From: a virus
DNA length: 30,713 nt
Strand: one strand, 5' to 3'
IMG/VR virus record: IMGVR_UViG_3300037472_000009
Span: 1-30,713 of that record
Made by a program: the position numbers and the translations under genes. The stretch's first letter is position 1. The number at the start of each line of letters is the position of its first letter. This document shows, piece by piece, positions 1 to 30,713 of this stretch. The notes under the pieces were generated by a model. It searched no databases and was not told the origin of the DNA. It worked only from the letters and a program-made list of their open reading frames with translations.

Positions 1-286
1 AACCGGTCACGTATCAGGTTGGCTTTTGGGATGCCGAGTGTTCCCCACAGGCGTGGGGATGAACCGTGGTGGACAGACGGCAAATGCCCAGCGCTCGAGT
101 GTTCCCCACAGGCGTGGGGATGAACCGCCTACGCGGCCGCTGTCTTGGCAGCAAGGTGCGTGTTCCCCACAGGCGTGGGGATGAACCGTGGTGGACAGAC
201 GGCAAATGCCCAGCGCTCGAGTGTTCCCCACAGGCGTGGGGATGAACCGATCGTTGGCGGTGTGCACACTGGCACGGCCAAGTGTT
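1..286. repeat. Direct terminal repeat (left copy)
   Basis: Bases 1-286 are the same as 30428-30713, checked at both ends and through the internal spacers. The repeat lies entirely inside the CRISPR array, so it shows that the contig overlaps itself. It is most likely an assembly overlap of a circular path of 30427 bp rather than a packaged terminal redundancy, because a P22-like headful phage would not have fixed 286-bp ends placed in CRISPR DNA. Confidence 0.9.
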
Positions 287-615
287 CCCCACAGGCGTGG
301 GGATGAACCGCCGACGGCGACCATGCCTATGCCGACCGCGCCGTGTTCCCCACAGGCGTGGGGATGAACCGGTGGCATCGAACCACAAGCCACCCTCGAC
401 CCGGTGTTCCCCACAGGCGTGGGGATGAACCGCCTACGCGGCCGCTGTCTTGGCAGCAAGGTGCGTGTTCCCCACAGGCGTGGGGATGAACCGCTTTTCA
501 CCGACTGGTTCGAGACCGCCGCGATGTGTTCCCCACAGGCGTGGGGATGAACCGTCTTTCGCCATACATACGAACAGAGTACGGCGGTGTTCCCCACAGG
601 CGTGGGGATGAACCG
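1..615 (+). CRISPR. Type I-E CRISPR array, distal part
   Basis: Ten complete 29-nt repeats start at 38, 99, 160, 221, 282, 343, 404, 465, 526 and 587, preceded by the last five bases of another (1-5). Each begins GTGTTCCCC and ends ATGAACCG, with a CCCCAC/GTGGGG hairpin, the hallmark of I-E (E. coli-like) repeats; orientation is leader-left, plus strand. All copies are perfect, including the last, whereas terminal repeats are often degenerate. Spacers are all 32 nt: 6-37, 67-98, 128-159, 189-220, 250-281, 311-342, 372-403, 433-464, 494-525 and 555-586. Spacer 189-220 repeats 67-98, and 433-464 repeats 128-159. There are no cas genes in the window, so use of the array needs host Cascade/Cas3. 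The array runs directly into the integrase frame at 616. Confidence 0.97.
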
Positions 616-647
616 ATCGTGGGCGGCAAGCACACCGGCACGGCCAA
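616..647 (+). other. Spacer-like 32 nt at the array/integrase junction
   Basis: These 32 nt directly follow the last repeat and are also the first codons of the surviving integrase frame. They align without gaps to spacer 250-281 at 27 of 32 positions; differences are at spacer positions 6, 12, 13, 14 and 21. In the integrase frame three differences are silent third-position changes and two fall in one codon (Lys here, Val in the spacer). The simplest reading is that this stretch is both an array spacer and its protospacer in the phage integrase gene, and that the contig crosses from array to phage here. Confidence 0.7.
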
Positions 648-1272
648 GCGGGTGCTGACCCGTGCCGAGGTGGGCGAGCTCATCGCGTGGTTGCCCAACA
701 TGCGCAGCCTGGGGCGCGACGTGACCACGATGTATCTGTGGACGTGCTGCCGGGGTGGCGAAATTGTCGGGATGCGCCCCGAGCACATCAAGCGCGAGGG
801 CGGTCAATGGTGGTGGACCATCCCGGCCAGCTTGACGAAAAACGCGGGCAACCCTCGGGCGGTGGATCACCGGGTGCCGCTGATTGGCCGGGCGCTGGAG
901 GTGGTGCAGCGCCGCATCGCGGGCGTTGGTGCGTCGGGTTGGCTGTTCGAGACTGAGCGCGGCAGGCAGTACACGCAAAATGATTTCTCGACCTACCTTT
1001 ACAGCCTGCATCCGGACAGCGCAAAGTCTCGGGCCCGGCAGGGCGAAGGACTGGCCCTACCGGTGCTGGGTTGGACAGCGCACGATCTGCGCCGAACCGG
1101 GCGCACGCTGCTGGCCGAGATGGGTTGCCCGCAGGAAGTGGCAGAGGCGATCCTGGGGCACTTGCCCAGCGTGATTGTTGGGACGTACAACCGCAGCTCT
1201 TACGATGCGCAGCGGGTGGAGTGGCTGGGGCGGCTCAGTCAGGCGCTGATGCGTCTGCCATCCGACCCGTAG
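616..1272 (+). CDS. int: Tyrosine integrase, C-terminal catalytic domain (5' end missing)
   Basis: The 218 residues form a complete tyrosine recombinase catalytic domain: Arg46 in TCCRGGE, a likely beta-hairpin Lys75, His156 and Arg159 in HDLRR, His182 in LGH and the nucleophile Tyr191 in TYNR. Such enzymes join phage attP to bacterial attB at integration. Full-length phage integrases usually carry another 150-200 N-terminal residues for arm-type and core DNA binding; these are absent. The frame stays open back through the CRISPR repeats to 526, but those residues are translated repeat and spacer, so no genuine start exists. The 3' end overlaps the convergent gene 1239-1475 by 34 nt. As it stands the gene is partial, either by assembly chimerism or by real fusion to the array. 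Confidence 0.92.
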   Translation: MVGGKHTGTAKRVLTRAEVGELIAWLPNMRSLGRDVTTMYLWTCCRGGEIVGMRPEHIKREGGQWWWTIPASLTKNAGNPRAVDHRVPLIGRALEVVQRRIAGVGASGWLFETERGRQYTQNDFSTYLYSLHPDSAKSRARQGEGLALPVLGWTAHDLRRTGRTLLAEMGCPQEVAEAILGHLPSVIVGTYNRSSYDAQRVEWLGRLSQALMRLPSDP

Positions 1273-3979: not shown

Positions 3980-4615
3980 TCAGAAAGGGATTGAGTCGTC
4001 GAGGTCATCGAATGCGCCCGGCGTTGATGCGCCGCCCTGTGCTGGCGCTGCCGACTGAGGCGCGCGGCGGGTTTTAAGAGGGCGGTGATGCAGGCGAGCC
4101 ACCATCTTTTCCAGCAGCACGGGCGAGGTCTTGCGCTCCAGAATCTCGCTGGCGGTCAACTCGGTTCCGGCCTGGAAGCAACCCGACAACACCATGCGAT
4201 TCGTCACCGAACCATCTGACTTTTGGTATTCCTCAGTCTCCAGCAGTAGGCCGATGGGCTTGCTGCAAAGGTCTGGGAAGATGGACCCTTCGCGGACGAC
4301 CTCCTTCTTTTGATCGAAGTCGTAGAAGGTGACATTGCCGAATTGCGGCTTGATGTCGCGCAGCTTCATGCAAGCCATCATGGCCATGAGCATGTCGAAC
4401 CCCATGATTCGGGTGCCGTCTGACTTGAGCGTGTAGAGGCTCAGACGGGCTTTTTGGCCTGCATCGTCTTCAAACACAAAGGCAATGCCCCGCGTACCGC
4501 TTTTCGCGGTGATGTCTTCGGCCTGGGTGAACTTGCCGGTGTATTTACCGATCTCTTTGATCTGGTTGCCGGTGCTGTCGGCTTTGCGTGCGGATTGTGT
4601 GTCGAGTGCGTACAT
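3980..4615 (-). CDS. SSB-like single-stranded DNA-binding protein
   Basis: 211 residues; ATG at 4615 is preceded by a clear GGAAAAG site. The body looks like an OB-fold phage SSB (beta-rich segments around TRGIAFVFEDDAGQKARLSLY and NVTFYDF). A Pro/Ala/Gln-rich linker follows from about 180 and the protein ends DDLDDSIPF, the acidic tip that SSB proteins use to dock recombination and replication partners. It lies directly downstream of a Sak4-like ATPase; SSB tails are known to stimulate Sak4-type annealing, so the two probably work as a pair. Assignment rests mainly on the tail and context. Confidence 0.75.
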   Translation of the reverse strand: MYALDTQSARKADSTGNQIKEIGKYTGKFTQAEDITAKSGTRGIAFVFEDDAGQKARLSLYTLKSDGTRIMGFDMLMAMMACMKLRDIKPQFGNVTFYDFDQKKEVVREGSIFPDLCSKPIGLLLETEEYQKSDGSVTNRMVLSGCFQAGTELTASEILERKTSPVLLEKMVARLHHRPLKTRRAPQSAAPAQGGASTPGAFDDLDDSIPF

Positions 4616-4632
4616 GGTGCTTTTCCTTGTGT

Positions 4633-5283
4633 TTAAGCAGTGGTGGCGGGGTGGTAATACTCGGATATGGCTGCATCAATTGCAGCCAGGTCGTTGTCGA
4701 TGTGCAGGTCTGCGAACATGCCCAGCGGTGACTTGGTGCAGTCGTTGCCGTTGGTCTGGGTGCTGAATTTGTAGTTGCCGTTGATGACTTCGGTTCGCAG
4801 GACGATTGTGAAAAAACCTTCCGGCACGAGCGTTTGATCGACCATCTTGCCAACCGTCTTCATGCGAACAGCGCCGAATTCGTCGGTTTGTGTGTGAGCC
4901 AACAGGTACACCCGGCGATGCGGCGCAAGGTCGCCAGCGGCTCGAAAAATGTTCCATGCGCTCTTGGCAATATCGGTGAACTTCTCATAGCCCTTGTCTG
5001 CGCTGCGGGACATCAGAGAATTCACCATGACGGCCTGGTAATCGTCAATCACCACAACTTCATGGGGTGACGAGCGCATGAGTTTTTCGATCAGCGCCGG
5101 GTCGTCGGTCTGAATGACGTTGCCCACGTCCTTGAGCTCGGCGCGGGTTTTCCACCCGGTAGCCCGAAAAGGCAGTGGTTTTTTTAAGCACTGGATCAGC
5201 AGGGTTTTCGCTGGGTTCAAGTTGCGAAGGCTGGTGGACTTGCCTGACCCGCTGTTTCCGAGAATGAGAGTTGCAATGCTCAC
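4633..5283 (-). CDS. P-loop ATPase, Sak4-like recombinase family
   Basis: 216 residues from GTG 5283, with GAAAG upstream; a longer frame to 5430 would overlap the small gene 5352-5513 and add a sequence unlike the family. Walker A is GNSGSGKST at residues 9-17; a Walker B-like strand VVVIDDYQ lies near 90. This layout fits phage AAA_24/RecA-like ATPases, including Sak4, which binds single-stranded DNA and promotes annealing. The neighbouring SSB with a DDSIPF tail and a Gp157 gene supports a DNA recombination role. Without structure comparison I cannot separate Sak4 from other nucleotide-binding proteins of this group. Confidence 0.8.
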   Translation of the reverse strand: MSIATLILGNSGSGKSTSLRNLNPAKTLLIQCLKKPLPFRATGWKTRAELKDVGNVIQTDDPALIEKLMRSSPHEVVVIDDYQAVMVNSLMSRSADKGYEKFTDIAKSAWNIFRAAGDLAPHRRVYLLAHTQTDEFGAVRMKTVGKMVDQTLVPEGFFTIVLRTEVINGNYKFSTQTNGNDCTKSPLGMFADLHIDNDLAAIDAAISEYYHPATTA

Positions 5284-5351
5284 GATGTGCTTTCGATTGT
5301 GTTGATGTGGTTTTTTGCTGGCTTGGTTTGGGTGCCGGTGAACCCATGATT

Positions 5352-5513
5352 TCAGTTGAATGGATCGGGTGCGCGCTTGAGTGCATCGACGCGCTGCTGT
5401 TGCTTCAATTCGCGCCAGAATGCGCGCCATGCTGCCCTGAATGCCTTCCTGATGGGCGCTGGTGGGCGCGGTGTGCGGCCCTCGCTGGGCCAGTACGCGT
5501 CTTTTGTTCTCAT
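5352..5513 (-). CDS. Small basic hypothetical protein
   Basis: 53 residues in the gap between two operon genes. The ATG (5513) lies 7 nt after the upstream stop. The product is rich in Arg, Pro and aromatic residues (YWPSEGRTPRPPAPIRKAF), then an amphipathic helix with several Trp and ends in PDPFN. No family is recognised. Position, orientation and the otherwise empty 237-nt gap support it. Confidence 0.6.
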   Translation of the reverse strand: MRTKDAYWPSEGRTPRPPAPIRKAFRAAWRAFWRELKQQQRVDALKRAPDPFN

Positions 5514-9147: not shown

Positions 9148-9429
9148 ATGTGCATCGACTGCCACAGAGCCAGCATCGGGCCGGGCTGGCCCATGCACTG
9201 CCCCACCTGTTTGTGGTGCGGTGCGCGGCTGCTGAAAACCATCGGACGGATGCAGATCACAGCCGAGCAATCGGTGGCCAGGCGGCGCCAGGTGCTGGCC
9301 GACTGGGTAGCGCATGGGCACAGCGAGCAGGACTTGCGCGCGTTGGCGAAGGGGTCGACACCGCTCGCACCGACTGGCCAGGACGAGCCAGCGGCATCCG
9401 AGCGCCCGAAGCCAGTAAAACGCCGTTGA
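9148..9429 (+). CDS. Small zinc-finger-like protein
   Basis: 93 residues beginning immediately after the previous stop, with GGAGGA upstream. Cysteines at 2, 5, 18, 21 and 24 (MCIDC ... CPTCLWC) form a likely N-terminal zinc site. A helical middle (SVARRRQVLADWVAHGHSEQ) and a Pro/Lys tail follow. It lies in the replication/recombination block like lambdoid nin-region proteins. Specific function unknown. Confidence 0.7.
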   Translation: MCIDCHRASIGPGWPMHCPTCLWCGARLLKTIGRMQITAEQSVARRRQVLADWVAHGHSEQDLRALAKGSTPLAPTGQDEPAASERPKPVKRR

Positions 9430-9596
9430 GCGCAGCCGAGGTGCTGCACGCGCTCAAGATCAAGCTGATCGCCGACGCCGACGACGATCTCGACAAATGG
9501 CCCGCTGTGCGCGTTTACCGCCCGGCTGGTGCATGGGTATCGGCAATACCCGGCGCGCCGCGTGCGCGTTGGTTTGATGCGGTGGTGACGGCATGA
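9426..9596 (+). CDS. Small hypothetical protein
   Basis: 56 residues if started at TTG 9426 (TTGA overlap with the upstream stop) or 51 from GTG 9441. The sequence VLHALKIKLIADADDDLDKW then VRVYRPAGAWVSAIPG is balanced and protein-like, and its stop overlaps the rusA start. The rare start codon makes the exact 5' end uncertain. No family recognised. Confidence 0.55.
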   Translation: MSAAEVLHALKIKLIADADDDLDKWPAVRVYRPAGAWVSAIPGAPRARWFDAVVTA

Positions 9597-9949
9597 GCGA
9601 ACTCGTTTTGCCCTGGCCATACAAAGCCCTGTCTCCCAATTCCCGGCTGCATTGGCGCGTGACAGCGCCGTTCAAAAAAATGTACCGAGACGCCTGCTAC
9701 GTATTGACCAAGCAATCTGGCATCAAGGTTGATTGGGATGGCGACGTTCACGTCTGGATTGACTTCTACCCGCCCGATCGGCGCCACCGGGACGACGACA
9801 ACATGATTACCGCGTTCAAGTCTGGGCGCGATGGCGTGGCCGACGCCCTGGATATCAACGACAAGCGGTTTCGCATTCACTCATACGTCAAAAGCGAGAT
9901 CGGCGGCATGGTGAAGGTGCGATTCACGCGCGGGCCGGAGGTGGCATGA
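9593..9949 (+). CDS. rusA: RusA-family Holliday junction resolvase
   Basis: 118 residues, close to the usual length of about 120. The N-terminus (LPWPYKALSPNSRLHWR) and the acidic block PDRRHRDDDNMITAFKSGRDGVADAL match RusA; the Asp residues near 63-66 and 79-83 are the expected metal ligands. RusA dimers cut four-way DNA junctions made during phage recombination and clear branched DNA before packaging. ATGA overlaps join it to the genes on both sides. Confidence 0.93.
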   Translation: MSELVLPWPYKALSPNSRLHWRVTAPFKKMYRDACYVLTKQSGIKVDWDGDVHVWIDFYPPDRRHRDDDNMITAFKSGRDGVADALDINDKRFRIHSYVKSEIGGMVKVRFTRGPEVA

Positions 9950-10597: not shown

Positions 10598-10891
10598 ATG
10601 AATGACACAGTGCGGAAAGGTGGGAAACCTAAAGGGTCACCAAAATCGGGCGGCGGAAGTCGTAAAGGCATCCTGAACAAGACAAGCGCCAACCTTAAGA
10701 ACATGATCCTAGGCGCGCTGGACGAGTCCGGCGGGGTTGGCTACCTTGTAGAGCGTGCGAACGATCCTAGGACCGCTAGCGCGTTCATGGCGCTGGTTGG
10801 TAGAGTTTTGCCAATGACGGTGCAAGGAACCGGCGTAGATGGTGAGCATGTCATTACAGTCATTGAGCGCAGGATCGTGAAGGCAAAGTGA
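10598..10891 (+). CDS. Terminase small subunit-like protein
   Basis: 97 residues, start ATG 10598 two bases after the previous stop. The basic Gly/Lys-rich N-terminus (RKGGKPKGSPKSGGGSRKG) and helical remainder resemble small terminase/DUF5681-type proteins that sit before TerL. The small subunit recognises the packaging site and regulates the large subunit. The stop overlaps the TerL GTG start. Assignment rests on context and the N-terminal pattern; the protein is short for a P22 gp3 (about 160). Confidence 0.65.
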   Translation: MNDTVRKGGKPKGSPKSGGGSRKGILNKTSANLKNMILGALDESGGVGYLVERANDPRTASAFMALVGRVLPMTVQGTGVDGEHVITVIERRIVKAK

Positions 10892-12111
10892 GTCAGCTTG
10901 TAATCGACACGCCTGAGGTGTTTGAGCCGCTGCTGGTGCCGTCTCGGTACAAGGGCATCTATGGCGGTCGTGGATCTGGAAAGTCGCACTTCTTTGCTGA
11001 ATCGTTGATTGAACTGTGCATCCAGAAAAAGACGGATGCGGTTTGCTTGCGTGAAGTGCAGCGCTCGCTCAAGTTCAGCGTTAAGAAGCTGCTGGAAAAC
11101 AAAATCCAGTCGATGAATGCGGGTGCTTACTTTGAAGTGCAAAACGAGCAGATCAAGTCTAGGCACGGCGGCGTCATAATTTTTCAAGGTATGCAAGATC
11201 ACACAAGCGACAGCATTAAGTCGCTTGAGGGATTCCAGATTGCATGGTTTGAGGAAGCCCAGTCCGCAAGCCAGCGCAGCTTGGATCTGTTGCGTCCTAC
11301 GATTAGATCGCCGGGCAGTGAACTATGGTTCAGCTGGAATCCCCGATACGCTACAGATCCGGTAGATATGCTGCTAAGGGGTGCAAACCCACCGCCCGAT
11401 GGCATCGTGATTGAGGCGAATCACAGTGACAATCCTTGGATGCCTGATGAGCTGGTTAAAGAGCTTGAATACGACAAAAGGCGTGATCCTGACAAGTACG
11501 CCCATATCTGGCTCGGCAAGTATCAAAGCAACAGCAGCGCTCGGGTGTTCCACAACTGGAGCATCGAAGAGTTTGAGACAGACCCTACAGCCTTGATTCG
11601 CCAGGGTGCTGACTGGGGCTTTAGCGTTGATCCTACGGTGCTCGTCCAGTGCTATATTTCGGGCCGAAGGCTGTATGTGTGCCATGAGGCGTACCGGGTG
11701 GGTTGCGACATTGTGGATACGCCAGAGCTGTTCATGAGCGTGCCAGACTCTGAGAAGTGGCCGATGGTTGCAGACTCAGCCAGGCCAGAGACTATCAGCC
11801 ATCTTCGCAAGAACGGCTTTCCAAAGATCACGAGTGCGGTGAAAGGCCCGAAGTCGGTCGAGGAAGGTATAGAGTTTTTGAAAAGCTTCGATATTGTGGT
11901 GCATCCAAGGTGCATCCACTTGATCGACGAGTTGGCGCTGTACTCGTTCAAAGTTGACCCGCTAGACGAAAGCCGGGTTCTTCCGATTCTTGCCGACAAA
12001 GACAACCACGTCATTGACGCATTGCGGTATGCTTGCGAGAGTGCGCGGCGTGCTGTAAGGCCGAACCACGCTTTACATTTTCAGCCCATCCCGAGCGCAA
12101 ACCGCTGGTAA
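10888..12111 (+). CDS. terL: Terminase large subunit (PBSX/Terminase_3 type)
   Basis: 407 residues from a GTG start coupled to the small subunit. The N-terminal ATPase has Walker A GGRGSGKS at 26-33 and Walker B with catalytic acid in IAWFEEA at 118-124. The C-terminal RNase H-like nuclease has acidic residues at D242 (ADWGF), D296 (ADSARPETI) and D377 (HVIDALRYA). The enzyme cuts concatemeric DNA and pumps it into procapsids through the portal. All domains are intact. Confidence 0.96.
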   Translation: MSQLVIDTPEVFEPLLVPSRYKGIYGGRGSGKSHFFAESLIELCIQKKTDAVCLREVQRSLKFSVKKLLENKIQSMNAGAYFEVQNEQIKSRHGGVIIFQGMQDHTSDSIKSLEGFQIAWFEEAQSASQRSLDLLRPTIRSPGSELWFSWNPRYATDPVDMLLRGANPPPDGIVIEANHSDNPWMPDELVKELEYDKRRDPDKYAHIWLGKYQSNSSARVFHNWSIEEFETDPTALIRQGADWGFSVDPTVLVQCYISGRRLYVCHEAYRVGCDIVDTPELFMSVPDSEKWPMVADSARPETISHLRKNGFPKITSAVKGPKSVEEGIEFLKSFDIVVHPRCIHLIDELALYSFKVDPLDESRVLPILADKDNHVIDALRYACESARRAVRPNHALHFQPIPSANRW

Positions 12112-12115
12112 AAAA

Positions 12116-14185
12116 ATGGCAACAAAAAAGCAAGATCAAGAACTAGTCGGCATCCACGCAGAGGCGTTGGCTCAGTTCGATGATATTCAGACAGCATTGA
12201 AGGATGAGCGTCTGCAATGCTTGCAAGACCGACGTTTCTACAGCATCTCAGGCGCTCAATGGGAAGGCCCGCTAGGCGAGATCTACGAGAACAAGCCCAA
12301 GTTCGAGGTCAACAAAGTTGCACTGGCGGTAATGCGGATCATCAGCGAGTACCGCAACAACCGGGTAACCGTTGACTACACGCCGAAGGACGGGACAAAA
12401 GCAGATGAGCTTGCTGACACATGCGACGGACTGTACCGCGCAGATGAGCAGGACAGCGTGGCTGACGAAGCGTATGACAATGCGTTTGAAGAAGCTGTAG
12501 GTGGTGGTTTTGGCGCTTGGCGCTTGCGCACAAAGTACGAAGACGAGGAATCAGAAGACGACGACCGGCAGCGGGTGATTATTGAGCCGATCTTTGATGC
12601 CGATAGCTCGGTGTTCTTTGACCTTGACGCAAAGAGGATGGACAAGTCGGACGCCAAGTATTGCTACGTCATATTTTCTATGACGCGAGAAAGATACATT
12701 GAAGAGTTTGGCGACAATCCGACTGATTGGCCTAAGACCATTCATCAGCATGAGTTCGACTGGTCGACGCCTGATATGGTGTTCGTTGCCGAATACTACA
12801 AAGTCGAGATGGTGAGTGAGACCATCCGGGTTTTTCAGGGCATCGACGGTGTGGAGGAAAAGTACCGCACAAAAGATTTTAAAGACGACCCGACGCTAGA
12901 GGAAACCCTGCTAGCCGTTGGCAAGACTGAGGTTAGAACCAAGCGCGTTAAGACTAAGCGGGTGCACAAATACATCTTGTCGGGCGGCGGGGTGCTGGAG
13001 GACGCGGGCTACATTGCGGGGAAGTGCATCCCAATCGTACCGGTGTACGGTAAGCGTTGGTTCGTGGACAACATAGAGCGTTGCATGGGCCATGTCCGGC
13101 TTGCCAAAGACGCCCAGCGGCTGAAGAATATGCAGCTATCAAAGCTGGGTGAGATCTCCGCATTGTCCAGCGTGGAGAAGCCAATCCTGACACCTGAGCA
13201 GGTTGCAGGCCATCAAGTGATGTGGAGCGAAGACAACCTTAAGGACTATCCTTACCTTCTCGTTAACCCGATCACAGGACCAGACGGCAGCCAGAGCATT
13301 ACTGGGCCGATTGGGTACACCAAGCCGCCTACGATACCGCCTGCGATGGCTGCGCTGCTACAGATAACGGAGACTGACATGCAAGACATTCTGGGCAATC
13401 AGTCCCAGGGTGACAAGATCGTGTCCAACATTTCAGGCAAAGCTGTGGAGATGATCCAGCAGCGGCTTGATATGCAAACGTTTATCTACATGAGCAACTT
13501 CTCGAAAGCCATGAAGCGCAGCGGCGAGATCTGGCTAAGCATGGCCCGTGATGTTTACGTTGAGGAAGGTAGGCGCATGAAGGTAATCGCTGCAAACGAT
13601 GTGACCGACAGCGTGGAGCTTATGAAGCCCATGATCGACCCTGACACGGGTGAGATCAAGATGCAGAACAACATGGCCGATGCTGCTTTTGATGTCGCTG
13701 TTGATGTTGGTCCATCGTCCAGCAGCAAGCGCAGCGCCACTGTAAGCGCGCTTATGGGCATGATGCAAGTCACGCAAGACCCAGAGACGCTGAACGTGCT
13801 TGGTTCGATGGCAATGATGAACATGGAAGGCGAGGGCATATCTGATGTGCGAGACTTCTTCCGAAATCGGCTTATCAAAATCGGCGTCATCAAGCCGACA
13901 GAAAAAGAGTCTCAAGAACTCATGGCAGAAATGCAAGGTCAGCCAGAAGATCCGAACTCTGTTTTCCTGAAGGCGGCAGCAGAAGAGGCGATTGCTAAGG
14001 CAGCGAAGGCCAGGGCCGATACGGTGGCAACCGTTGCAGACTCTGAGCTGACACGGGCCAAGACAATCGAGACTATGGCGGGCATTGAGCTGGACAGCCA
14101 GGCCCAGGCCATAGAGCTAGCCAAAGAAATAGGCATCGGTGTGGAGATGCAAAACCAGCAGCCCGACTTGCTGCAGTTTAGTTGA
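12116..14185 (+). CDS. P22-like portal protein
   Basis: 689 residues, near the 725 of P22 gp1. Starts 4 nt after TerL. Conserved features of podoviral P22-type portals are present: an N-terminal RRFYSISGAQWEG region, NKVALAVMRIISEYRNNRV, an acidic wing domain and the core near RLKNMQLSKLGEISA; the C-terminal 120 residues are Ala/Glu-rich and helical, like the barrel of P22 portal. Twelve subunits form the DNA entry channel at one capsid vertex and bind terminase, then gp4-like factors. Confidence 0.93.
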   Translation: MATKKQDQELVGIHAEALAQFDDIQTALKDERLQCLQDRRFYSISGAQWEGPLGEIYENKPKFEVNKVALAVMRIISEYRNNRVTVDYTPKDGTKADELADTCDGLYRADEQDSVADEAYDNAFEEAVGGGFGAWRLRTKYEDEESEDDDRQRVIIEPIFDADSSVFFDLDAKRMDKSDAKYCYVIFSMTRERYIEEFGDNPTDWPKTIHQHEFDWSTPDMVFVAEYYKVEMVSETIRVFQGIDGVEEKYRTKDFKDDPTLEETLLAVGKTEVRTKRVKTKRVHKYILSGGGVLEDAGYIAGKCIPIVPVYGKRWFVDNIERCMGHVRLAKDAQRLKNMQLSKLGEISALSSVEKPILTPEQVAGHQVMWSEDNLKDYPYLLVNPITGPDGSQSITGPIGYTKPPTIPPAMAALLQITETDMQDILGNQSQGDKIVSNISGKAVEMIQQRLDMQTFIYMSNFSKAMKRSGEIWLSMARDVYVEEGRRMKVIAANDVTDSVELMKPMIDPDTGEIKMQNNMADAAFDVAVDVGPSSSSKRSATVSALMGMMQVTQDPETLNVLGSMAMMNMEGEGISDVRDFFRNRLIKIGVIKPTEKESQELMAEMQGQPEDPNSVFLKAAAEEAIAKAAKARADTVATVADSELTRAKTIETMAGIELDSQAQAIELAKEIGIGVEMQNQQPDLLQFS

Positions 14186-15097: not shown

Positions 15098-16369
15098 ATG
15101 GCTAACGCATTTTCCAAAGAAGAACGAGTAGCATTTGAAGACCTTTTGGAAGGCTTTAACGATGCGCTGGTGTTGTCCCGCAACGTCTCGATCTATCAGA
15201 CCGATCAGACGATGATGGAGCGCACCAACAACATCATCTTTCGACCACAGCCCTACATTGCCCAGTCGTTTGACAGCACCCCAGGCGTGAGCATCTCAGG
15301 CTCTTACAACGACTTTACACAGCTTTCTGTGCCTGCCACTATCGGCTTTAGCAAGACGGTTGCTTTTGAGCTTAACGCCCTGGAACTGCGTGACGCGTTG
15401 CAAGAAGGCCGATTGGGCGTTGCTGCAAAGCAGAAGCTGGCAAGCGATATTAACGTGGCAATCATGAACTCTGCTGCTTCGCTTGGATCGCTTGTTGTGC
15501 CCATCGCTGCCGCTGCTGGCGACTATGACAACATCGCGCTTGCTGACACGATCATGAACGAGCAAGGCGTGAACATGGAAGAGCGCTACTTGGCTCTTTC
15601 CAGCCGCGACTACAACGGCTTGGCTGGCAACTTGTCGCAAGCATCGCGCTCGTTTGGTAATCCAAAGTCGGACAAAGCTTACGAGTCTAGTTTTGTTGGC
15701 CCGGTTGCAGGTTTTGACACCTACAAAATGGACTACGCTAACCGGATTACTGCCGCGGCTGGTGGTGCAACTTTGATTGATACCCGCACTGCTGCTAACA
15801 ACTTCTATGTTCCGCTTGCTACGTCTACGGCAGTTGGTGGCAAGATCAACGTTGATAACCGCTTCCAAACTGTTGCAGTGGACAACACTGGCGGCATTGT
15901 TGCCGGTGACGCATTCACCATCTCAGGCGTTGAAGCGGTGCATCACATCACCAAGCAATCTACTGGCCAGCTTAAGACGTTTCGTGTTGTGAGCGTGACC
16001 AACGGAACTACGATGGTTATCACGCCGCCAGTGATCTCTACCCAAGGCGGCACCGATGCTGAGGCACAATATCAAAACGTTATCGTTACCCAGGCTTCTG
16101 CCGCTGCGATTGTCTTCTTGAACGTCAACGCCACAAGCGTCAACGTTTTCTGGCAGCGCGATTGCTTGGAAATCCTTCCCGGTCGCTACTCTGTGCCTAC
16201 CGATGCAGGCGTGGCCATCATGCGAGCCAGCACAGACCAAGGCATTGAGCTGGTGATGCAGAAGTTCTACGACATTGACACGATGAAAACTAAGTACCGT
16301 TTGGATACATTGTTTGGTGTGGTGAACAAGAATCCACAAATGTCTGGCATTCTGTTGTTCAACCAGTAA
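15098..16369 (+). CDS. Major capsid protein, P22 coat-like
   Basis: 423 residues (P22 gp5: 430). Similarity to P22 coat is visible in the region KINVDNRFQTVAVDNTGGI, followed by a GDAFTISGV segment and VVSVTNGTTMVITPP, the telokin-like insertion domain of P22 coat. The N-terminal helix (KEERVAFEDLLEGFNDAL) and E-loop/backbone helices fit the HK97 fold. It forms the T=7-type shell around scaffold. A strong terminator follows, allowing high coat expression from the upstream genes. Confidence 0.95.
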   Translation: MANAFSKEERVAFEDLLEGFNDALVLSRNVSIYQTDQTMMERTNNIIFRPQPYIAQSFDSTPGVSISGSYNDFTQLSVPATIGFSKTVAFELNALELRDALQEGRLGVAAKQKLASDINVAIMNSAASLGSLVVPIAAAAGDYDNIALADTIMNEQGVNMEERYLALSSRDYNGLAGNLSQASRSFGNPKSDKAYESSFVGPVAGFDTYKMDYANRITAAAGGATLIDTRTAANNFYVPLATSTAVGGKINVDNRFQTVAVDNTGGIVAGDAFTISGVEAVHHITKQSTGQLKTFRVVSVTNGTTMVITPPVISTQGGTDAEAQYQNVIVTQASAAAIVFLNVNATSVNVFWQRDCLEILPGRYSVPTDAGVAIMRASTDQGIELVMQKFYDIDTMKTKYRLDTLFGVVNKNPQMSGILLFNQ

Positions 16370-28472: not shown

Positions 28473-28709
28473 ATGAAAAACGAAGCCACAACAAACGCAT
28501 TAGAGGCTACAGTTGCTAGCCTTGCAAACAAGGCCACCTATACAGGCGCAGGAGTTACCATTAGTGGCGGTATTTTGATTTCTGAGATTGCGGTTATTGT
28601 CGGTATGGTTATCGGAGTACTGGGTCTGTTGGTCAATTGGTACTATCGCGCCAAAGATGATCGACGAGCTGTAATTGAACACAAGCGACGCATGGGAGAG
28701 CGCGAATGA
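28473..28709 (+). CDS. Class II holin
   Basis: 78 residues. A weakly hydrophobic TYTGAGVTISGG segment (22-33) leads into a strong transmembrane helix (about 36-57) ending VNWYYRAKDDRR, then a basic tail. This matches class II holins of lambdoid phages (Phage_holin_2_3 type, S21-like). It makes inner-membrane lesions that time lysis and release or activate the SAR endolysin encoded next (ATGA overlap at 28706). Confidence 0.88.
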   Translation: MKNEATTNALEATVASLANKATYTGAGVTISGGILISEIAVIVGMVIGVLGLLVNWYYRAKDDRRAVIEHKRRMGERE

Positions 28710-29206
28710 AGAACCCACGCATGTTTATTGCCGCGTTGTCGCTGAGTGCGGCAGCGTTTGGTGGGCTTGTGCTAAAGGAGGGCTACACCGACCGGGCTGT
28801 AATACCTATTCCAGGCGACCGGCCTACCGTGGGCTTCGGCAGCACGTTTGACGACAAGGGCTTGCCCGTGAAGATGGGCGACACCATTACCGCGCCCCAG
28901 GCCGTGCGGCGTTCGCTGGCCCACATCGCCAAAGACGAGAGCGCGCTGAAGCAGTGCGTGACTGCGCCATTGAACCAAGCAGAATATGACGGCTTGGTCG
29001 AATTTTCATACCAATTCGGCACCGCCACCGCCTGCCGATCCAGCATGGTGCGACACATCAACGCCGGGCGCTACGCCGACGCCTGTGCGGCCTACCTGCG
29101 CTACCGCTTCGCAGCCGGGCGCGACTGTTCCGACCCAGCCAACAGGTGCCGAGGCGTGTGGCTGCGCACCCAAGAGCGGCACCAAAAATGCATGGCGGCG
29201 CAATGA
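28706..29206 (+). CDS. SAR endolysin, lysozyme (GH24-like)
   Basis: 166 residues. An N-terminal weakly hydrophobic helix (residues 6-22, Ala/Ser/Gly-rich) without a cleavage site is a signal-arrest-release anchor. Catalytic Glu25 follows in KEGYTD, then a GDRPTVGFGST segment with the usual active-site Asp/Thr. Further NQAEYDGLVEFSYQFG and GVWLRTQERHQKC are lysozyme family positions. It cuts peptidoglycan in the periplasm after release from the membrane. Cys residues at several positions may form activating disulfides. Confidence 0.92.
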   Translation: MKNPRMFIAALSLSAAAFGGLVLKEGYTDRAVIPIPGDRPTVGFGSTFDDKGLPVKMGDTITAPQAVRRSLAHIAKDESALKQCVTAPLNQAEYDGLVEFSYQFGTATACRSSMVRHINAGRYADACAAYLRYRFAAGRDCSDPANRCRGVWLRTQERHQKCMAAQ

Positions 29207-29691
29207 TATGGACACCCCTGATCCGACCCCTGGTTGCGATCACAGTTATTGCCATCTCACTTGCTGGGTGTGCATGGTACGCGCACAGCAGCGGTCGGCA
29301 ATCCGGGATGCAAGCTACCCAAGCGCGGTGGGACGCAGAGAAAGTGCGGACGCTGGAAGCGCAGGTCGAACAGATCTTGATTGCGCAGCAGCGCGAAGGC
29401 GAGCTGAGGGCTCAGATGGACAACTTGAAAAGGACGCACCGTGACCAAACGACTCGCATTGCTGCTGCCCATGCTGATCTTGTTGACAGCCTGCGCCAGC
29501 GCCCCGACCGTCCGAGTGCTGGAGGTCTGCCCGAGGGTGCCACCGCTGGAGCTGGGCCTGTCACCGGATGCACTGGAGCTCAGCTTTACCGACCGGATGG
29601 AGAATTTCTTGCGCGGGAAGCTGCCAGGGCCGACCAGCTACGCGCTGCCCTCGGGGTCTGTGCGGCTGCCTACAACGCCCTGACGCGGTGA
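29203..29691 (+). CDS. Rz: Inner-membrane spanin Rz
   Basis: 162 residues; ATG 29203 overlaps the endolysin stop. N-terminal transmembrane helix (about 9-26), then a long periplasmic coiled coil (RWDAEKVRTLEAQVEQILIA and QQREGELRAQMDNLKRTH) typical of i-spanins. It bridges to Rz1 and fuses inner and outer membranes in the last step of lysis. Unusually, LAGC at 20-23 also reads as a lipobox. The o-spanin gene lies wholly within its 3' half in another frame. Confidence 0.9.
   Translation: MIWTPLIRPLVAITVIAISLAGCAWYAHSSGRQSGMQATQARWDAEKVRTLEAQVEQILIAQQREGELRAQMDNLKRTHRDQTTRIAAAHADLVDSLRQRPDRPSAGGLPEGATAGAGPVTGCTGAQLYRPDGEFLAREAARADQLRAALGVCAAAYNALTR
29441..29683 (+). CDS. Rz1: Outer-membrane spanin Rz1, nested in Rz
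   Basis: 80 residues from GTG 29441, entirely inside Rz in a shifted frame. Signal sequence with basic start (MTKRLALLLPMLILLTAC) and lipobox ending at Cys18; the mature part is Pro-rich (CPRVPPLELG, KLPGP), as in Rz1 lipoproteins. Nested arrangement and lipobox make the assignment firm. Confidence 0.9.
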   Translation: MTKRLALLLPMLILLTACASAPTVRVLEVCPRVPPLELGLSPDALELSFTDRMENFLRGKLPGPTSYALPSGSVRLPTTP

Positions 29692-29928
29692 TCTGGCATA
29701 CTGCGCACCAGTGGCGCATGAGTGCCATCACAAAAGCCGAAGGCGAGAAAAGTCGAAGATCGCAGGCAGCACACTTCGGTGTGTCCAGGGCGCAGCCAGA
29801 AATGGAGCAAGCGCCCGCACAGCAGCGAACGCACTGCCGGTTTTTGTGATGGTCGCCGTCCGCAATAGAGCAATCGTCCGCAATAGGCGGTCATCCAAGC
29901 AGGGTAGAGCCTGACAACACAACTGGGT

Positions 29929-30249
29929 GCAAGTGCCCGGTGCCATCACATCAGCGGTAAGGTTAAGAGAAACGGGTTGCCCCTTAGAAAGCCGACGGGT
30001 GGGTTGCAGTTGCGCGTATCGAATCGCGCCCGTTGATGTGATAGCGGAATGCACGGGCTGACGTGCGAGTGCCTGCAAAACCGTGGAGCCACGGCTTGAC
30101 CGCCGCCACATGCCGGAGATCAGCACCGGCCCGCTACCCGATGGCATGACCAGCACCCGCAGCAGGGTTCACCCTCGTGGTGCTGGCTTGCCGACCTTTT
30201 GATGACAAGCCCGTAAATAGCCGCAAGGCCCCAAGGAACGGTTCCGAAG
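29929..30249 (+). ncRNA. Candidate large structured RNA (family not recognised)
   Basis: The stretch 29692-30281 has no convincing gene. It holds many complementary arms: a 13-bp stem (29945-29957 with 30030-30042, one G-U pair) closing over TAAGG/CCTTA (29958-29962 with 29982-29986) and GCGCG/CGCGC (30012-30016 with 30025-30029); hairpins GCACG/CGTGC (30051/30062), CCGTGG/CCACGG (30081-30094), GCCGG/CCGGC (30112/30126), CCAGCAC/GTGCTGG (30150/30180) with an inner AGGG/CCCT, and GGAA/TTCC at 30235-30245. Upstream, 29694-29727 and 29770-29783 (UUCG loop) also fold, and CGTCCGCAATAG is repeated at 29857 and 29875. Giant phage RNAs (GOLLD-like) occur near lysis genes, but I do not recognise their motifs. 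Strand is assumed from the flanking genes. Confidence 0.55.
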
Positions 30250-30281
30250 TCGGTGCAATCCGATGCTGCCATCAACCCAAA
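30250..30281 (+). other. Candidate protospacer at the phage/array junction, with AAG PAM
   Basis: Exactly 32 nt separate AAG (30247-30249) from the first CRISPR repeat at 30282. AAG is the canonical 5' PAM of type I-E systems and 32 nt the spacer length used throughout this array. The stretch therefore looks like a phage protospacer whose copy is also a spacer in the array. A chance AAG has a probability of about 1 in 64, so this alone is suggestive; together with the other junction it is stronger. Confidence 0.6.
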
Positions 30282-30713
30282 GTGTTCCCCACAGGCGTGG
30301 GGATGAACCGCATTCGGCAATCTTACCGCAAACGGTAAGCGCGTGTTCCCCACAGGCGTGGGGATGAACCGAATGCAGTGGCTGCATCCAGCACGGCCAT
30401 GAAGTGTTCCCCACAGGCGTGGGGATGAACCGGTCACGTATCAGGTTGGCTTTTGGGATGCCGAGTGTTCCCCACAGGCGTGGGGATGAACCGTGGTGGA
30501 CAGACGGCAAATGCCCAGCGCTCGAGTGTTCCCCACAGGCGTGGGGATGAACCGCCTACGCGGCCGCTGTCTTGGCAGCAAGGTGCGTGTTCCCCACAGG
30601 CGTGGGGATGAACCGTGGTGGACAGACGGCAAATGCCCAGCGCTCGAGTGTTCCCCACAGGCGTGGGGATGAACCGATCGTTGGCGGTGTGCACACTGGC
30701 ACGGCCAAGTGTT
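30282..30713 (+). CRISPR. Type I-E CRISPR array, leader-proximal part
   Basis: Repeats of the same sequence start at 30282, 30343, 30404, 30465, 30526, 30587, 30648 and (partial) 30709. Spacers 30311-30342 and 30372-30403 are unique to this end; from 30428 onward the sequence repeats bases 1-286. Joined across the ends, the array has 13 repeats and 12 spacers, of which 10 are distinct. The sequence upstream of 30282 is GC-rich and hairpin-rich rather than the AT-rich leader usual for I-E arrays, so no leader is recognisable. Confidence 0.96.
30428..30713. repeat. Direct terminal repeat (right copy)
   Basis: This is the second copy of bases 1-286, with the same order of spacers. It closes the contig into a circle through the CRISPR array. 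Confidence 0.9.

Follow-up and report, generated by a model that had tools for sequence, protein, structure and literature searches.

CRISPR repeats and viral DNA are known to occur together in several settings. In type I-E systems, viruses are linked to their hosts through exact spacer-protospacer pairs, with 29-nt repeats, 32-nt spacers and an AAG PAM, the two partners usually being matched across two contigs. Some viruses carry CRISPR sequences themselves: the mini-CRISPR arrays of SPV1 and SPV2 have spacers against relatives of the virus, some of which target sites adjoining the array (PMC6858448), and in solitary repeat units (Racr) phage DNA is joined to a single intergenic CRISPR repeat (PMC10651486). 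Finally, metagenome assembly chimeras arise at short repeats, where the string common to the partners has about the length of the smallest k, and the authors of MCAAT note that the graph paths of protospacers have nodes in common with spacers (PMC12342471).

The sequence studied here is the IMG/VR virus record IMGVR_UViG_3300037472_000009 (positions 1-30,713; the whole 30,713 bp are referred to as the window), which resembles each of these systems and differs from each. Unlike the SPV1/SPV2 arrays, its array has 13 repeats instead of one or two spacers in an intergenic position, no leader, a broken gene beside it and protospacers at its edges; unlike Racr units, it is a long array in a closed circle and not a solitary intergenic repeat. 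In contrast to the usual host-virus linkage, the link sits in one contig, as a bridge. In contrast to the usual assembly chimera, the common string is a CRISPR spacer, and there would be two bridges, a false circle and a 'terminal repeat' that is internal to the array.

The window starts and ends within one CRISPR array. The repeat (GTGTTCCCCACAGGCGTGGGGATGAACCG, 29 nt) is present in 17 exact copies and all spacers are 32 nt long; this repeat of the GTGTTCCCC...GGGGATGAACCG kind together with the spacer length identifies the array as type I-E. Its left-hand part (1..615, plus strand) contains 10 repeats at 38-615, the last one at 587-615, and its right-hand part (30282..30713, plus strand) contains 7 repeats at 30282-30676. 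Positions 1..286 and 30428..30713 (both plus strand) are exactly identical, i.e., the contig closes on itself within the array. After closure on this 286-bp overlap, the circle consists of the phage part (616-30281) and 13 repeats, with two phage/array joints. The first-pass annotation had described the right-hand joint; that the record also begins in the array, that its ends are identical and that there is a second joint at 616 had escaped it. Two of the array spacers, s4 and s5, are present in duplicate (window 1-286, 160-249). No cas-like matches were found among the window proteins scanned; the host locus lies outside the record.

The phage part encodes the P22-like podophage set of portal (12116..14185, plus strand; PF16510, E=2e-157), coat protein (15098..16369, plus strand; PF11651), scaffold (phrog_648) and terminase large subunit (10888..12111, plus strand; PF04466). 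Besides these, genes for a phage single-strand DNA binding protein (SSB; 3980..4615, minus strand; phrog_743), a Sak4-like ssDNA annealing recombinase (4633..5430, minus strand; phrog_2872, E=3.5e-77), a RusA-like Holliday junction resolvase (9593..9949, plus strand; phrog_34) and an endolysin of the phage lysozyme family (28706..29206, plus strand; PF00959) are present. The record is thus a P22-like phage genome (616-30281) whose circle is closed by a portion of a type I-E array.

At the right joint, the first repeat (30282) is preceded by 32 nt (protospacer B, 30250..30281, plus strand) and these by AAG (30247..30249, plus strand), which is the geometry claimed in the first-pass annotation. 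It had predicted a phage protospacer with the canonical type I-E PAM and phage sequence continuing past 30281, and exactly this is seen in an intact relative, L005 (IMGVR_UViG_3300041583_000188): the identical AAG and 32 nt (B at 4619-4650) are followed there by phage sequence, and the relative departs from the window where the repeat begins. The absence of a leader was confirmed as well, since nothing leader-like or AT-rich precedes the first repeat, its place being taken by phage sequence with AAG and 32 nt. The stretch 29690-30281 of the window is non-coding and follows the lysis genes; it matched no Rfam family convincingly, and ARAGORN called no tRNA there. A related element is present in L005 (4328-4650) in two copies, one with B exact (at 4619) and one with 5 mismatches (at 4381).

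The left joint follows the same rule, so that the earlier single-joint account was correct for the right-hand side and incomplete for the record. Here, the last repeat (587-615) is followed by 32 nt (protospacer A, 616..647, plus strand) that read as integrase codons (IVGGKHTGTAK) and open the truncated gene of a phage tyrosine integrase (616..1272, plus strand; PF00589, E=7e-12; phrog_1). In L006 (IMGVR_UViG_3300022829_000063), the same 32 nt are found exactly (598-629), preceded by AAG and lying inside an intact integrase of 414 aa; in L007, the site has 7 mismatches and lies within an integrase of 412 aa. Compared with these two proteins, the window integrase lacks ~200 N-terminal residues. 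On the sequence comparison, both joints are spacer/protospacer identities with an AAG PAM in intact relatives.

In L007, the two protospacers are 939 bp apart on the same strand, with B before A, and the array keeps this B-then-A order. The array therefore occupies the place of a phage segment of ~939 bp, and the N-terminal half of the integrase is missing. In L007, the missing segment comprises, besides the 5' half of the integrase gene, a hairpin resembling a terminator and a tRNA-like stretch. The tRNA-like stretch (about 9153-9187; reverse strand GCGGGTGTAGCTCAATGGCAGAGC...) was recognised by eye and was not called by ARAGORN; it is probably attP in a tRNA gene. A close relative, G004 (IMGVR_UViG_3300037861_000049; L134 1-300), retains little of its integrase because of two deletions; between them they take out protospacer A as well as the exact copy of B, and one begins just before protospacer A. 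These are possibly CRISPR-escape deletions.

Two further spacers of the array match this phage group. Spacer s7 (250..281, also 30677-30708; plus strand) is a third spacer, aimed at the same integrase site as A, with 5 mismatches to this phage and 4 to L007, and the site carries AAG in relatives, as do those of A and B. Spacer s4 (67..98, also 189-220, 30494-30525 and 30616-30647; plus strand), which occurs twice in the circle, matches the relative G002 with 3 mismatches in another region than the integrase site; it is the exception in having TCG instead of AAG as PAM. Among viral contigs, the exact s7 spacer was found in this record alone, and the ten distinct internal spacers had no match to any INPHARED phage. 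The host link proposed in the first-pass annotation is therefore strengthened by s7 and s4. The exact repeat was found in 33 stretches from many unrelated phyla and does not point to a single host; in 399 genomes from the family to which the Paraburkholderia genome belongs, the portal relatives were just 42-48% identical. Whether the joints are artefactual or real, the data strongly support the presence of a co-sampled type I-E host immunised against this phage group.

How the joints came about is less certain. Most probably, in our view, they are a bridge made by the assembler through two spacers. The array would come from a co-sampled bacterium in which B and A are ordinary spacers. A type I-E spacer and the PAM-derived G would together make 33 common nt, enough to form one vertex at k=33. 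At B the path would leave the phage for the array and at A it would return, so that ~939 bp of the phage and the remainder of the host array are lost. With B and A as ordinary spacers, the strings common to both partners would have lengths of 33 nt at B and 34 nt at A, because the phage-side G of AAG is identical to the last base of the repeat. When k-mer sharing was computed with B and A taken as ordinary spacers and with relatives replacing the missing flanks, phage and array had three 33-mers and one 34-mer in common and none at k≥35; with these flanks, strings of at least k are thus common to the partners at the joints only. One paper on metaSPAdes assembly at JGI lists k = 33,55,77,99,127, with 33 as the first k (PMC11584781); these settings may not be those used for this record, for which k=127 was deduced from the terminal repeat.

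The 286-bp repeat would accordingly be explained as a k=127 edge within the array and not as a phage terminus. Its first 127 bases read AACCG+s3+R+s4+R and its last 127 bases R+s4+R+s7+GTGTT (R, repeat), and these end 127-mers halt exactly at branch points of the spacer order. They are the branch vertices expected if an array variant without the s5-s4 duplication was present, and the ends of the repeat suggest that such a variant co-existed in the sample. As the 'terminal repeat' lies inside the array, it is uninformative on the phage terminus; the relatives G001 and G004 have plain 127-bp terminal repeats. The bridge is further supported by the integrase being cut mid-gene, with its N-terminal half and the probable attP stretch in the missing segment, and by a second IMG/VR contig with a double joint, L150 (IMGVR_UViG_3300037307_000772; 4,306 bp; 1-90 and 4178-4303, reverse complement). 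In this contig, leader-like DNA, a repeat and 32 nt lead into phage sequence, which is left again through AAG, 32 nt and a repeat. The bridge is weakest in requiring two false joins to persist through k=55-127, with competing paths lost or mis-resolved; a 33-nt identity should resolve at k≥55 unless the competing paths are lost. Moreover, with protospacers only 939 bp apart, the record retains nearly all of the phage, an outcome also expected from recombination and subsequent selection.

Recombination in a cell is accordingly a serious rival, although we consider it rather improbable for this record. A real recombinant would have formed in an immune host by two crossovers between phage and host array, one at each spacer/protospacer identity (33 bp and 34 bp). 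It would have exchanged ~0.94 kb with attP and the integrase 5' half for 13 array repeats and would be an obligately lytic phage with a captured array. The Sak4-like annealing protein, SSB and RusA resolvase encoded by the phage make recombination at short homologies plausible; the protospacers being close together, little was lost, and the lost region is dispensable, as G004 (with a 127-bp, k-type terminal repeat) has integrase remnants only. Furthermore, the record forms a closed circle in which the genes otherwise keep their order. However, two crossovers within 33-34 bp would be needed, AAG and the B target are left intact, so that the donor host would still cut the phage, and our literature search found no described capture of an array by such a route. 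The double joint of L150 beside leader-like sequence also suits assembly better. Of the graph crossing proposed in the first-pass annotation, the spacer/protospacer identity holds, and the assembler is favoured over the cell as the origin of the joins.

A case for joints made of real DNA comes from other viral contigs, in which this geometry is seen again. IMG/VR was scanned for type I-E repeats, and 33 non-redundant repeat loci with sufficient upstream sequence were kept. AAG stands exactly at -35 of the first repeat in 13 of these (L041, L042, L148, L149, L150, L152, L154, L157, L158, L161, L165, L168 and L169) and in none at -36 or -34 (p = 4e-13 for the enrichment at -35 against the local AAG frequency). 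Conservation across the 13 loci is confined to AAG, with free variation in the 32 nt. In a control set of arrays with the repeat of the window in bacterial genomes, AAG was found at -35 in 1 of 26 cases. L149 and L150 look as bridges would: they run off the contig, and their phage side has long open frames. Solitary type I-E repeats have AAG at -35 in 8 of 11 cases, and most of these sit between intact genes: in L161, the repeat lies between the terminase and portal genes, while a relative, L179 (with a 94% identical terminase), lacks the whole block; in L157, the repeat provides the last base of a stop codon; and L168 has a record number of the isolate-genome kind and not of the metagenome kind. 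These intergenic solitary repeats (L161, L157, L168), where PAM, 32 nt and repeat stand in phage contigs with no broken gene, are hard to call artefacts, which counts in favour of recombination.

No relatives of L154, L042, L165 and L041 close enough to show the site without the repeat were found. None of 769 sampled bacterial genomes contained AAG followed by 32 nt and a type I-E repeat, but such repeats are so rare there that the result is uninformative. Mini-arrays of isolate phages (Corynebacterium, Streptomyces, Klebsiella, Saccharomonospora) have no AAG at -35, although the majority of these repeats are degenerate. I-E-like repeats of degenerate sequence lie in intergenic gaps of Corynebacterium phages (L262-L267), Streptomyces phages (L268-L269) and the Klebsiella phage KP13-16 (L270), the repeat of KP13-16 standing behind leader-like sequence. 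The main text of the Racr paper, searched for PAM, does not mention the AAG(-35) geometry (PMC10651486).

This unexplained AAG(-35) pattern is the basis for a broader reading, which we put forward tentatively and hold to be unlikely: the joints may be real DNA, formed when phages capture host repeats by recombining at protospacers already represented among the spacers of that host. The scar would be PAM, protospacer and repeat; the window would represent an early, long capture, and the solitary type I-E repeats of other phages (8 of 11 after AAG and 32 nt) would be its contracted remnants.

An old-established phage-borne array serving superinfection exclusion, as proposed by analogy to the mini-arrays of archaeal viruses, is very improbable. 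Such arrays do exist (PMC6858448), mini-arrays occur in isolate phages as well, and the spacers of the window match relatives of this phage. But the array has 13 repeats against one or two spacers, lacks a leader, cuts the integrase gene and has exact protospacers at both edges, and L005 and L006 are free of it at the two sites; it was rejected on these grounds (size, missing leader, broken gene, absence from relatives at both sites). That the right joint is a true array flank with an accidental AAG 35 nt upstream can practically be dismissed: AAG at one given position alone is a 1-in-64 event, and chance is far too weak an explanation because L005 matches at B and the second joint obeys the same rule, with exact 32-nt identity to relatives (L005 and L006), AAG in each and the break at the repeat border.

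If the joints are artefacts, as we favour, a closed-looking virus contig with end repeats can be a phage plus a host array, its terminal repeat being internal to the array. The signature of AAG, 32 nt and repeat is easily screened for, and each such error would be a direct link between a virus and the immunity of its host. Real joints, on the other hand, would show the way in which phages acquire CRISPR repeats. As the geometry recurs in other viral contigs, it bears on the origin of solitary repeats and of RNA anti-CRISPRs. Capture at protospacers, if true, would account for the origin of phage mini-arrays and RNA anti-CRISPR repeats, and also for mini-array spacers aimed at sites beside the array.
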